In this document: positions 7,419-15,681 of the stretch, piece after piece
Layout of the letters: the number at the start of each line of letters is the position of its first letter
Position numbering within the stretch: the first letter of the stretch is position 1
Origin: an uncultured Clostridia bacterium
GTDB taxonomy: Bacteria; Bacillota; Clostridia; Oscillospirales; Ruminococcaceae
Direction of reading: 5' to 3'
Assembly: GCA_944386285.1 (NCBI GenBank)
Contig: CALXAM010000043.1
Coordinates: 1-64,000, forward strand
DNA: 64,000 nt
Made by a program: the position numbers and the translations under genes
The notes under the pieces: generated by a model
The model's database searches: none
What the model was told of the DNA's origin: nothing
The model's input: only the letters and a program-made list of their open reading frames with translations

Positions 7419-7676
7419 TATATATGAACAAACGCAACGAAAAGAAGAGTACGCACAGCGGATGCCAAAAAGAGAGCCCGGATAGGTGAAAGCGGGCGGC
7501 AGACAACCTGCGGAACATGGTCTTGGAGCGGCGTCGGTGAGTTTTTTAAATAAACCGGCGACGGAACGCACGCCGTTATATTGTGCACAATGAGGCACGG
7601 GTTTCCGTGTGAATTTAAAGTGGTACCACGAAGCATAAGCGCTCTCGTCTTTAAACAAAAAGACGGAGCGCTTTTA
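7419..7676 (+). promoter_or_regulatory. T-box riboswitch (methionine)
   Basis: A roughly 260-base structured leader that senses uncharged tRNA-Met and controls metG. Stem I features include GAAGAGTACG (S-turn, about 7440-7449) and the distal loop around 7472-7498. The sequence GGAACATGG holds an ATG specifier at 7517-7519. The T-box with core TGGTACC lies at 7621-7627 and would pair with the tRNA acceptor end. It is followed by a terminator (arms about 7638-7652 and 7658-7672, then TTTT). This leader fills the only gene-free stretch longer than 300 bases in the window. Confidence 0.93.
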
Positions 7677-10425: not shown

Positions 10426-10435
10426 TAATATGAGT

Positions 10436-10469
10436 AAAAAAGAGGCTGTCATCAGACAGCCTCTTTTTT
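10436..10469. terminator. Bidirectional terminator, copy 1
   Basis: Arms GAGGCTGTC and GACAGCCTC with an ATCA loop are flanked by six A and six T. It serves metG-tatD on the plus strand and the XRE gene on the minus strand, whose stop codon lies in the T-run. The 32-base core is identical to the terminator at 12393-12424. Confidence 0.92.
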
Positions 10470-10737
10470 ATTTTGACAGCTCTTTTTTACAAGTGACTTT
10501 GTCTCTCTCCGCTTCCTGTTCAATATGTTTCACCAATTCATGCGGTGGTATTTCAAAAGCGTTGGCAATCCGCCATATCGTTTCAAAATTCGGCTGTTTT
10601 GTTCCTGTTTCAATCATCGCTAAATGACTTCGTGCAATTCCAACAAGGCCACTAAAAACTTCTTGTGACAACTTCTTTTTCTTTCGCAAGCGCCGTACAA
10701 CAACACCGACTGAACGCTTATTAAATTCTATCATCAT
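10468..10737 (-). CDS. XRE family helix-turn-helix regulator
   Basis: An 89-residue single-domain Cro/C1-type DNA-binding protein. The HTH covers about residues 12-66 (RRLRKKKKLSQEVFSGL, then HLAMIETGTKQPNFETI), followed by a short charged tail ending CKKELSK. The ATG at 10737 follows AAGGA by seven bases; the frame continues upstream to 10800 without a ribosome site. It is divergent from the DUF4234/SHOCT membrane gene, and the intervening repeats at 10781-10831 are the likely operator. A role as local repressor is inferred from this layout. Confidence 0.88.
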   Translation of the reverse strand: MMIEFNKRSVGVVVRRLRKKKKLSQEVFSGLVGIARSHLAMIETGTKQPNFETIWRIANAFEIPPHELVKHIEQEAERDKVTCKKELSK

Positions 10738-12340: not shown

Positions 12341-12392
12341 TTATAAAAATATTTAGTCGTTATCAGATTATTTGATAACTTCATTGTTTCAT

Positions 12393-12424
12393 AAAAAGAG
12401 GCTGTCATCAGACAGCCTCTTTTT
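12393..12424. terminator. Bidirectional terminator, copy 2
   Basis: The same 32-base core as the terminator at 10436 (arms GAGGCTGTC / GACAGCCTC, A5 and T5 flanks). It lies between the convergent genes ending at 12340 and 12423, and the latter's stop codon is in the T-run. Confidence 0.9.
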
Positions 12425-12779
12425 ATGCTATTTGAGGTGGTTCCTTTTCTTTTATAATTTTTACGATATTATAAATTTGATACGGAATATAAAGTGCTAA
12501 GCCGGCATAGAAAATACAGGCGAACGTAACGGGCCAAAGAATGGCAGAGACAATTTTAAACGGAAGCGATCTCTTTTTGAAAAATATCACAGCGAGAATG
12601 ACAGACGAAAAAATCATACTAAATCCAATTCCGCCCAATAATCCCCAGTAACAAAATGAAGCCAATTTATTTTCAAACATCAGCAATCCAATACTTCCGA
12701 TCGCACCATAAATGAAAAATGCGGAAATCAGCACACACAGTGTGGTAATCAGATATGCGATTCGATTTTTCCTCGACAT
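12423..12779 (-). CDS. Small four-helix membrane protein, unknown function
   Basis: A 118-residue hydrophobic protein with four predicted transmembrane segments (about residues 8-30, 41-63, 66-76 and 80-103) and a charged C terminus (VKIIKEKEPPQIA). I do not recognise the family. GAGGG lies six bases before the ATG. It stands alone between two terminators, next to the XRE/SHOCT island, and may be part of it. Confidence 0.65.
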   Translation of the reverse strand: MSRKNRIAYLITTLCVLISAFFIYGAIGSIGLLMFENKLASFCYWGLLGGIGFSMIFSSVILAVIFFKKRSLPFKIVSAILWPVTFACIFYAGLALYIPYQIYNIVKIIKEKEPPQIA

Positions 12780-12859
12780 CTTGATCCCTCTTTTATGATT
12801 TTTTCATCTTAAGCATAACAGATTTTTCTGTCTATGACAATCTATTTTTCAAAGAAACA

Positions 12860-12904
12860 AAAATCCCGCTCCGTTTCCAAAAGGAAACCTGAGCGGGATT
12901 TTTC
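12860..12904 (-). terminator. Terminator of the rubrerythrin operon
   Basis: The arms AAATCCCGCTC and GAGCGGGATTT enclose an inner stem GTTTCC/GGAAAC with an AAAA loop. T-rich sequence follows on both strands. It lies nine bases beyond the stop of the 12913-13239 gene. Confidence 0.9.
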
Positions 12905-12912
12905 AGATCAGT

Positions 12913-13239
12913 TTATTCAGATAAGAATGTAATGGATGCGTCTTTTTTGAGTGCCAATCCGCATTCCGCTTCCACACATTTTGCGATTCCCGCAAGCACC
13001 GGACAAGAGCAGTGCCCCGGAAAATGCTCGGAGGCGTATTCGTACAGCGGACCGGTTCCCGGCTTGCCTAAGCAGAGCGCATACGCATCAAATGTGTTTC
13101 CGATTGTCTCCATCATCTGTTTGACAGCTGTACAGCCGGACGTCACAGTGAGTGTCACATCCTGCATGTCTTCATCAGCCACTGCCGTCACCATCGTGGG
13201 CAGTCCGCACACACCCGGATCAATCTTGACCTTGGTCAT
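12913..13239 (-). CDS. Small Cys-rich protein (DUF6951-like)
   Basis: A 108-residue soluble protein with seven Cys (residues 11, 36, 56, 77, 79, 88 and 93), including a CSC pair. It opens with a PGVCG motif like the clostridial DUF6951 group. The Cys pattern suggests metal or Fe-S binding or a redox role. Its ATG overlaps the rubrerythrin stop (TAATG) with no ribosome site of its own, so its translation depends on that gene. A function with rubrerythrin in oxidative stress is inferred from this coupling. Confidence 0.65.
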   Translation of the reverse strand: MTKVKIDPGVCGLPTMVTAVADEDMQDVTLTVTSGCTAVKQMMETIGNTFDAYALCLGKPGTGPLYEYASEHFPGHCSCPVLAGIAKCVEAECGLALKKDASITFLSE

Positions 13240-13784
13240 TATTTGCCGAAGTAACGAGCGAGCAGACCTGCAAATGCTTTGCCGTGACGAGCTTCGTCGC
13301 GAGCCATCTCGTGAACAGTGTCATGGATTGCATCGAGATTTGCAGCTTTTGCGCGTTTTGCAAGATCAAATTTGCCTGCGGTTGCGCCGTTTTCAGCTTC
13401 TACGCGCATCTCAAGGTTTTTCTTTGTAGAATCGGTAACAACTTCGCCTAAAAGCTCTGCAAATTTTGCAGCGTGCTCAGCCTCTTCATAAGCTGCTTTC
13501 TCCCAGTACAGACCGATTTCCGGATAACCCTCTCTGTGTGCAACTCTTGCCATTGCGAGATACATACCAACCTCGGTGCACTCGCCCTGGAAGTTTGCGC
13601 GCAGATCAGCGATGATGTCTTCGCTGACGCCCTGTGCAACGCCTACAACGTGCTCAGCTGCCCAAGTCATTTCGCCAGCCTGCTCTGTGAATTTCGAAGC
13701 CGGTGCTTTGCACTGCGGACATGCTGCCGGTGGCTCGTCGCCTTCATGAACGTATCCGCAAACCTGACATACCCATTTTTTCAT
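13239..13784 (-). CDS. Reverse rubrerythrin (rubredoxin domain first)
   Basis: An NADH-dependent peroxidase-type oxygen and peroxide detoxification protein of anaerobes. The 181-residue protein begins with a rubredoxin-like CQVCGY ... CPQC iron site (about residues 5-26). The four-helix di-iron domain follows with glutamate/His motifs [27 protein letters not shown] and [13 protein letters not shown]. The iron domain comes first, the reverse of classical rubrerythrin. The ATG at 13784 follows GGAGG by eight bases. Transcription comes from the symmetric promoter at 13843-13881. Confidence 0.92.
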
Positions 13785-13842: not shown

Positions 13843-13881
13843 CTTGACTTAATTATACCTCGTTAGTATAATTAAGTCAAG
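13843..13881. promoter_or_regulatory. Mirror-symmetric overlapping promoter/operator
   Basis: A perfect inverted repeat: CTTGACTTAATTATAC at 13843-13858 and its exact reverse complement at 13866-13881, with a 7-base centre. Each strand therefore carries TTGACT-N17-TATAAT (plus strand 13844-13849 and 13867-13872; minus strand the mirror image). The minus-strand promoter is preceded by an A-tract (complement of T7 at 13884-13890) resembling an UP element and drives rubrerythrin. On the plus strand the T-run also makes it look like a terminator, but nothing upstream needs one. Confidence 0.75.
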
Positions 13882-13898
13882 TCTTTTTTTCAGAAAAT

Positions 13899-13928
13899 TT
13901 GTAAACAGATTATGTTTTGTGCTACAAT
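13899..13928 (+). promoter_or_regulatory. Second promoter for the B12 radical SAM gene
   Basis: TTGTAA and TACAAT are separated by 18 bases, with a TGC extended -10, about 29 bases before the ATG at 13957. Confidence 0.55.
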
Positions 13929-13956: not shown

Positions 13957-15681
13957 ATGAACATTCTGCTTGTTGGAATCAACACCAAATATATTCACAC
14001 CAATCTTGCGATTCGCATTCTTAAATACTATGCTACACCCCGGTGCAATAGTCAAATCGAAACGGCTGAATATACGATCAATCAATATACGGATGATATT
14101 CTGCGTGATATTTATTTAAAAAAGCCGGACATGATCGGTTTTTCGTGCTACCTGTGGAACATCACATTTGTTCAGATTTTAATGGATGCCATCAAAAAAG
14201 TCCTCCCGAACTGTATTCTATTTGTTGGCGGACCGGAAACAAGTTTTGACAGCGCGGACGTTCTTGCGCGCACTAAGGCTGATTTTGTCATCCGCGGTGA
14301 GGGTGAAATTCCTTTTACGCAAACAGTCCTTGCACTCGAACAATCGCAAACACTCGAAGCAGTTCGTGGGATTACATGGCGCAAACTGACGGGTGAAATC
14401 ATCGAAAACCCCGATCCTACTGCACCGATTGATATGGCGGATGTGCCGTTTGTCTATACGAAAGAAGAACTGCCTGCCCACCAGATTGTCTATTATGAAG
14501 CAACACGCGGCTGTCCGTTTTCATGCCAATACTGCCTCTCCGGGCATAACAGCCGCGTGCGCTTTCGCCCGCTCACACAGGTCTATCAAGATCTCTCGTT
14601 CTTCCTCTCCGAGAACGTACCGCAGGTCAAATTTGTCGACCGAACATTTAACTGCAATCGCGAATATGCCATGGCAATCTGGACATATCTGCGCGAGCAC
14701 GACAACGGTGTCACCAACTTTCATTTCGAAATGGCCGCTGAACTGATTGACGAAGAGATGATCCGCTGGCTTTCAGATGTGCGTCCGGGACTGTTTCAGT
14801 TTGAAATCGGCGTACAATCAACAAATCCTGAAACACTCAAAGCAGTAAAGCGTATCACGCTTCCTGATAAGCTCACACCGGTTATCACCGCATTAAAACA
14901 GCCGCAAAATATTCATCTACACCTTGATTTGATCGCAGGGCTACCGTTTGAGGGATATGATCGCTTCAAAGAGTCGTTCAACTACGTCTACAGCCTTTCT
15001 CCCGACCAGCTTCAGCTTGGATTTTTAAAACTGTTAAAGGGCTCGGGACTCTATCAAGATCGTGAAAAATATGGTCTTGTCTGCCGCAGTGACGCGCCAT
15101 ATGAAATTCTGTGTACGCCGTGGATTTCGTTTGATGAACTGCTGCGACTCAAACGAATTGCGGAGATGGTAGAACTTTATTACAATACAAGACGGTATCG
15201 TCAATCGCTTCAAGCACTGCTATCGCAGTTTGCAACACCCTTTGATTGTTTTGAAGCACTCGCCGATTTTTATGAGACAAACGGCTATCATTTTGCTCCT
15301 CATACAAAGCTTGAAAACTATACAATTCTATTTCGCTTTTATGAATCGATCGCACCCGAACGTGCCGAATGGTTCAGCTGGCTTCTTCGGTTCGATCTGT
15401 ACGCACACGAAAAAGCAAAAAAACTCCCCCCATTTATGGACGAGGGAAAAAAGGCAGAATACCACAGCCGAATCTATGCGTTTTTCGACGATCCACAGGC
15501 TCGTGCAGTTTATCTCCCGGAATATGAAGAAATGGACACACGACAGCTCATTCGCAGTGCACACATTGAAGTATTTCCATTCAACCCCTTTACTCATACG
15601 TTGGGAGACACTGCGATCCTATTTAATTATCGACGCCTGACATTTGATCATAATGCTTCTGCTGCGATTATTTCTCTTTAA
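13957..15681 (+). CDS. B12-binding radical SAM protein with DUF4080 C terminus
   Basis: A 574-residue protein. An N-terminal cobalamin-binding Rossmann domain (MNILLVGINTKYIH, then IGFSCYLWN and ILFVGGPETS) spans about residues 1-150. A radical SAM core follows with CPFSCQYC near residues 188-195, the [4Fe-4S] cluster motif. The C-terminal third resembles DUF4080. Such proteins do methylations or other radical chemistry on unknown substrates. The ATG at 13957 follows AAGGAG by six bases; the frame starts 15 codons earlier. It is divergent from the rubrerythrin operon. Confidence 0.88.
   Translation: MNILLVGINTKYIHTNLAIRILKYYATPRCNSQIETAEYTINQYTDDILRDIYLKKPDMIGFSCYLWNITFVQILMDAIKKVLPNCILFVGGPETSFDSADVLARTKADFVIRGEGEIPFTQTVLALEQSQTLEAVRGITWRKLTGEIIENPDPTAPIDMADVPFVYTKEELPAHQIVYYEATRGCPFSCQYCLSGHNSRVRFRPLTQVYQDLSFFLSENVPQVKFVDRTFNCNREYAMAIWTYLREHDNGVTNFHFEMAAELIDEEMIRWLSDVRPGLFQFEIGVQSTNPETLKAVKRITLPDKLTPVITALKQPQNIHLHLDLIAGLPFEGYDRFKESFNYVYSLSPDQLQLGFLKLLKGSGLYQDREKYGLVCRSDAPYEILCTPWISFDELLRLKRIAEMVELYYNTRRYRQSLQALLSQFATPFDCFEALADFYETNGYHFAPHTKLENYTILFRFYESIAPERAEWFSWLLRFDLYAHEKAKKLPPFMDEGKKAEYHSRIYAFFDDPQARAVYLPEYEEMDTRQLIRSAHIEVFPFNPFTHTLGDTAILFNYRRLTFDHNASAAIISL

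Follow-up and report, generated by a model that had tools for sequence, protein, structure and literature searches.

The 39-bp palindrome at positions 13843-13881 of the window, the 64,000-nucleotide stretch of an uncultured Clostridia bacterium that was analysed, was interpreted as the operator of an Rrf2-family, probably Fe-S, repressor, lying over a sigma-A-type promoter that would serve the rubrerythrin-DUF6951 unit (probability about 80%). The mirror-image promoter on the other strand would be mainly a consequence of the symmetry of this operator. An Rrf2 operator was preferred to a PerR box because the core was nested in the rubrerythrin promoter, recurred upstream of a regulon of oxygen-defence genes and preceded the Rrf2 gene itself, because that gene encoded conserved Cys and Asp8 residues, and because operator and regulator co-occurred among genomes. 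The features are listed in Table 1.

Table 1. Positions of the palindrome, its component elements, the neighbouring genes and the candidate regulator gene.
Feature	Position	Strand	Basis or remark
DUF6951 protein	12913..13239	-	start overlaps rubrerythrin stop
Reverse rubrerythrin, rubredoxin-like domain first, 181 aa	13239..13784	-	ATG at 13784
Perfect 16-7-16 inverted repeat	13843..13881	.	sequence, repeat search, shuffles
Mirror promoter TTGACT-N17-TATAAT, function doubtful	13844..13872	+	promoter score; not conserved
Conserved operator core AATTATAC-N7-GTATAATT	13851..13873	.	kept at relatives' rubrerythrin promoters and at other oxygen-defence genes
Rubrerythrin promoter TTGACT-N17-TATAAT, overlapped by the operator	13852..13880	-	promoter score; geometry kept 14/14
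A-tract adjoining rubrerythrin -35, UP-element-like (T-run on +)	13882..13889	-	sequence; identical in two nearest species
Candidate own promoter of radical SAM gene, TTGTAA-N18-TACAAT, extended -10 TG	13899..13928	+	kept in two nearest species
B12-binding/radical SAM/DUF4080 protein, 574 aa	13957..15681	+	ATG at 13957
Rrf2-family regulator gene	G000:C2:78289-78678		own genome

Structure of the palindrome and its surroundings

The palindrome reads CTTGACTTAATTATAC-CTCGTTA-GTATAATTAAGTCAAG; its arms (13843-13858 and 13866-13881) were complementary at 16 of 16 positions, and the 7-nt centre was itself without symmetry. On each strand (13844-13872 on the plus strand, 13880-13852 on the minus strand) the promoter element matched TTGACA-17-TATAAT at 11 of 12 positions. 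These results agreed with the original prediction, which had claimed a perfect 16-bp inverted repeat with identical promoter elements on both strands. Besides the palindrome, six perfect inverted repeats in the window had arms of at least 14 nt, and all six resembled the short-loop stems of terminators. Since dinucleotide shuffling of the entire window, repeated 12 times, never produced a perfect inverted repeat whose arms were at least 12 nt long and whose loop was up to 20 nt, the palindrome is not a chance product. Nor are its two promoters independent coincidences, since the perfect half-sites AATTATAC/GTATAATT automatically place TATAAT on each strand and their 8-bp outer extension supplies the mirrored TTGACT.

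Open reading frames and domains confirmed that the palindrome is flanked by a reverse rubrerythrin gene on the left and a B12 radical SAM gene on the right, as had been predicted. The rubrerythrin and DUF6951 genes probably constitute one operon, and a terminator-like repeat at 12859-12903 closes this unit. Near-identical terminator-like repeats (AAAAAGAGGCTGTC/GACAGCCTCTTTTT) at 10435-10470 and 12390-12427 bracket a gene for a DUF4234/SHOCT protein. The sole match in an Rfam scan of the window was a T-box leader at 7428-7655, directly upstream of a methionyl-tRNA synthetase-like gene; none was obtained at the palindrome.

A stem of -19.8 kcal/mol followed by TCTTTTTTT would also suit an intrinsic plus-strand terminator, composed of a hairpin and a T-run, and the original prediction had itself named this function of the T-run as the reading opposed to its own. 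However, no plus-strand gene ends upstream, where the plus strand is antisense to rubrerythrin, and the T-run is the A-tract that precedes the rubrerythrin -35 on the minus strand. Furthermore, in relatives the long stem was lost and the promoter-operator was kept. On gene order and conservation the terminator reading was rejected as extremely improbable.

Conservation of the proposed operator core and of the mirror promoter

The complete palindrome was present as a single copy in its own genome, and the exact 39-bp form was absent among 60 relatives because conservation was limited to the inner operator. When rubrerythrin orthologs were collected from relatives and their upstream regions read for the palindrome, TATAC-N7-GTATA was found within the rubrerythrin promoters of 14 genomes of the host's family (own genome included), with 8-10 matches to the 10 core positions. 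In all 14 operator-bearing genomes the right half of this core was the -10, placed exactly 17 nt from the -35, and in most the -35 was of the TTGAC type; the consensus of the 12 distinct sites was nAAAnTATACTnATATGGTATAnTTAA. From this geometry, a protein bound at the core would lie across both the spacer and the -10, which is the classical position of a repressor. The recurrence of the core in 14 rubrerythrin promoters supported the earlier proposal that a dimeric repressor would recognise symmetric DNA at the promoter of an oxidative-stress gene. At 80 rubrerythrin loci from more distant Clostridia, the operator was not found.

The original prediction had also envisaged a compact switch to which polymerase can bind only one way at a time. 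In such a two-way design, rubrerythrin and the radical SAM gene would be fired alternately from mutually exclusive promoters, with one repressor gating both. The strength of each promoter (11/12, with a 17-nt spacer) and the outer arms, of which 14/16 pairs were kept in the two nearest species (G001 and G007), were consistent with such a design, and bidirectional promoters have been described as ubiquitous among prokaryotes (PMC12825309). However, the match of the mirror -35 to TTGACA reached 5/6 only in this species, compared to 4/6 in G001 and G007, where the mirror elements were weakened to TTGGCT/TATACT, and 2/6 in G004, the next species that keeps the divergent rubrerythrin/radical SAM pair, in which the mirror promoter was gone. 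Over the 14 sites the mean -35 match was 3.2 on the mirror side, compared to 5.1 on the rubrerythrin side and 2.5 at random positions. The radical SAM gene had a candidate promoter of its own, which was preserved in G001 and G007 and ended approximately 28 nt before the start codon. Where this gene was unlinked from rubrerythrin (G003, G006 and G011) the operator was absent, and the gene was rejected as a member of the core regulon. In addition, basal transcription from the bidirectional promoters tested in E. coli was too low for polymerase competition, save where one direction was strongly activated (PMC12825309).

Both -35/-10 pairs of a bidirectional promoter were present, but the second direction was unconserved in relatives. 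Because the mirror -35 was not conserved, the radical SAM gene had a separate conserved candidate promoter and its unlinked copies were without the operator, the mirror promoter is probably a side effect of the perfection of the operator, although it may be functional; at most, the radical SAM gene of this species would gain some regulated transcription from it. A two-way switch by design was not supported and was judged to be unlikely.

Six of the ten intergenic differences from G001 fell within the 39-bp palindrome (p = 0.01), and comparison of the window with G001 and G007 revealed that both arm differences from G001 rendered the copy of this species perfect. The cluster of differences could be due to chance, to drift of the centre or to templated quasi-palindrome correction. 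A further, unlikely proposal is that the operator was extended in this species to a perfect mirror, possibly by such correction, creating a second, mutually exclusive promoter through which the Rrf2 oxygen switch would govern the B12 radical SAM gene as well.

A putative regulon and its candidate regulator

Pattern and profile searches located the operator motif upstream of several further genes. It preceded the rubredoxin-flavodiiron operon adjoining uvrA (own genome, G002, G003, G004, G006 and G007), a flavin reductase-rubredoxin fusion (own genome and G007), the copper P-type ATPase gene copA (own genome, G001 and G007; two sites side by side), the pyruvate formate-lyase gene pflB (weaker in the own genome, two sites in G004) and the Rrf2-family gene behind rpoD (own genome, G001 and G007; a diverged form in G004). 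The original prediction had pointed to other oxidative-stress genes as places to look for the palindrome; it was the inner motif that was found there, before further oxygen-defence genes in the genome and the genus. Operator-like sites were paired before the copper ATPase gene (L131:1501-1545, G000:C60) and before the pyruvate formate-lyase gene (L171, G004). A strong promoter-operator beside uvrA was retained in G005 (L209:1501-1526, G005:C8:33950-33975), a genome in which neither a close rubrerythrin nor a flavodiiron gene was found in these searches (assembly 85% complete); it is possibly a relic site.

The sites at the Rrf2 gene differed from those at rubrerythrin, having a TATAGT half, and gave weak profile scores (E = 0.016-0.28). 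When a profile derived solely from the rubrerythrin sites was run over 98 kb of Rrf2 loci, five hits were obtained. Three of these were at Rrf2 promoters; the other two closely followed the Rrf2 gene, and one of the two lay in the region that precedes rpoB. In some family members, operator-like sites overlapped a promoter-like element just 3' of the Rrf2 gene (L187:2031-2055, L197:2016-2034, L258 and L260). Among 148 family genomes, a stricter pattern, TATACYNNNNNRGTATA, was found 229 times, compared to 127 times for the reversed control (p = 4e-7), and its matches included sites upstream of flavodiiron, thioredoxin, cysteine desulfurase-like and copper ATPase genes. This enrichment holds, yet many individual matches in the scan are clearly chance, and the sites at rpoB, iscS-like and other genes may be of unclear regulatory sense or chance matches. 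In other genera the operator core lay before cysteine desulfurase-like and thioredoxin genes (L264, L275, L272 and L282), which may point to a branch of the regulon concerned with Fe-S repair.

No Rrf2 protein other than the regulator encoded behind rpoD was found in the own genome. This regulator matched the Pfam Rrf2 family (PF02082, E = 5.9e-31) and scored above the cut-off of TIGR00738, and it reached none of the NCBIfam equivalog cut-offs for NsrR (33.8 bits, cut-off 182), IscR (54 bits, cut-off 207.55), RirA and CymR. Three Cys residues and Asp8 were invariant in 30 of 30 aligned orthologs, and the Cys residues mapped to the cluster-binding region of NsrR, IscR and RirA. Asp8 is the fourth cluster ligand of NsrR (PMC13404960), and in RirA exposure to O2 leads to loss of the [4Fe-4S] cluster, which ends binding to the DNA site (PMC6748827). 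Because the three Cys and Asp8 are conserved and the RirA cluster is O2-sensitive, an O2- or NO-labile cluster, predicted here from the protein sequence, is most likely the sensor of the regulator.

With a close Rrf2 ortholog defined by at least 50% identity and the operator counted from 9/10 core matches, the rubrerythrin operator was present in 13 of 18 genomes with such an ortholog, compared to none of the 12 without (Fisher p = 9e-5, a value that ignores shared ancestry); the other 5 of the 18 had no rubrerythrin site. The Rrf2 gene was directly before rubrerythrin in G048, and in G044 it was shortly before the flavodiiron gene in the same orientation. As in Rrf2-type operators, the inner palindrome was found at the target promoters and also at the promoter of the regulator.

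The original prediction had suggested peroxide or metal control, while stating that the site did not match the PerR box well. Of the 80 rubrerythrin promoters from more distant Clostridia, 23 had a PerR-like box, CAGTAATnATTACTG, and the own genome also encodes one Fur-family protein, so that a PerR or other Fur-type operator had to be considered. However, the best matches to the PerR boxes TTATAATnATTATAA and CAGTAATnATTACTG in the intergenic region were 9/14 and 8/14, and 9/14 was reached by 93% of shuffles, in keeping with the poor fit already noted. The gap between half-sites is 7 bp here compared to 1 bp in the PerR box, and the distribution of the operator tracked that of the Rrf2 ortholog. 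Matches to the PerR, Rex and Fur consensus sequences did not exceed those in shuffles and were rejected. Fur-type control is very unlikely, and the predicted signal was corrected to O2 or NO, acting through Rrf2 and an Fe-S cluster, as the most likely. In four operator-less genomes (L016, L021, L025 and L036) a Fur/PerR-type gene, identified by eye, ended directly upstream of rubrerythrin, an arrangement which suggests that the regulators were swapped.

For the Rrf2 operator, we infer the identity of the binding protein, repression, the cluster and its signal from the arrangement described above. In anoxia, a cluster-bearing dimer would bind TATAC-N7-GTATA across the spacer and the -10 and exclude RNA polymerase. 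Damage to the cluster by O2 (or NO) would then cause the dimer to let go of the operator; rubrerythrin would be made, along with rubredoxin, the flavodiiron protein and the flavin reductase-rubredoxin, and synthesis of the repressor itself would also rise.

Relation to known systems

The candidate regulator shares with NsrR, IscR and RirA the Pfam Rrf2 family, a dimer-type palindromic operator, three conserved Cys that follow the winged helix, and redox-sensitive stress-gene targets, and with NsrR also Asp8; it differs from these proteins and CymR in falling below their equivalog cut-offs. Its putative targets are anaerobic O2/NO reductases, whereas those of NsrR, IscR and RirA are flavohaemoglobin or the isc/suf operons, and the operator letters differ.

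A preprint of July 2026 described C0FN14, an Rrf2 regulator of gut Clostridia that has three Cys and Asp8 and whose gene adjoins butyryl-CoA:oxygen oxidoreductase, flavodiiron and rubrerythrin genes (PMC13404960). Close homologs were reported in Acutalibacteraceae, Oscillospiraceae and Lachnospiraceae, a release-on-oxidation mechanism was proposed, an operator or motif was not reported, and persistence in the cirrhotic gut was associated with this class of regulator (PMC13404960). The present regulator shares the three Cys and Asp8, the oxygen-defence setting and the proposed release-on-oxidation logic, a likeness by description that does not imply orthology; it differs in that its gene is behind rpoD in the host's genus and its regulon is dispersed.

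The Rrf2 proteins SifR and HypR have the operator TGTAA-x9-TTACA (PMC9218516), and its two 5-nt halves 9 apart span the same length as nTATA-x9-TATAn here; however, SifR is a quinone sensor with one conserved Cys, and its half-site sequence is unlike the present one. In Clostridioides difficile, the anoxic repression of flavodiiron and reverse rubrerythrin genes is due to OseR, which O2 releases, and a common DNA motif was not found (PMC11481553). OseR has the same kinds of target genes but is of the Spx/YusI type. Symmetric DNA that seats polymerase either way is shared with the bidirectional promoters of E. coli (PMC12825309), but here the symmetry spans the -35, spacer and -10 and would be explained by the operator, and the mirror activity is putative and unconserved.

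A system of this kind is known and was partly anticipated; what is added here is the operator, the regulon in the host's family and an explanation for the mirror promoter. The last carries a caution, in that overlapping mirror promoters may merely reflect the symmetry of an operator. To our knowledge, oxygen sensing outside PerR in strictly anaerobic Clostridia is poorly known. What can now be tested directly is an operator of defined sequence, with TATAC-N7-GTATA as its core, together with a named candidate for the regulator and a limited putative regulon, which comprises rubrerythrin, rubredoxin-flavodiiron, flavin reductase-rubredoxin, the copper ATPase, pyruvate formate-lyase and the regulator itself.
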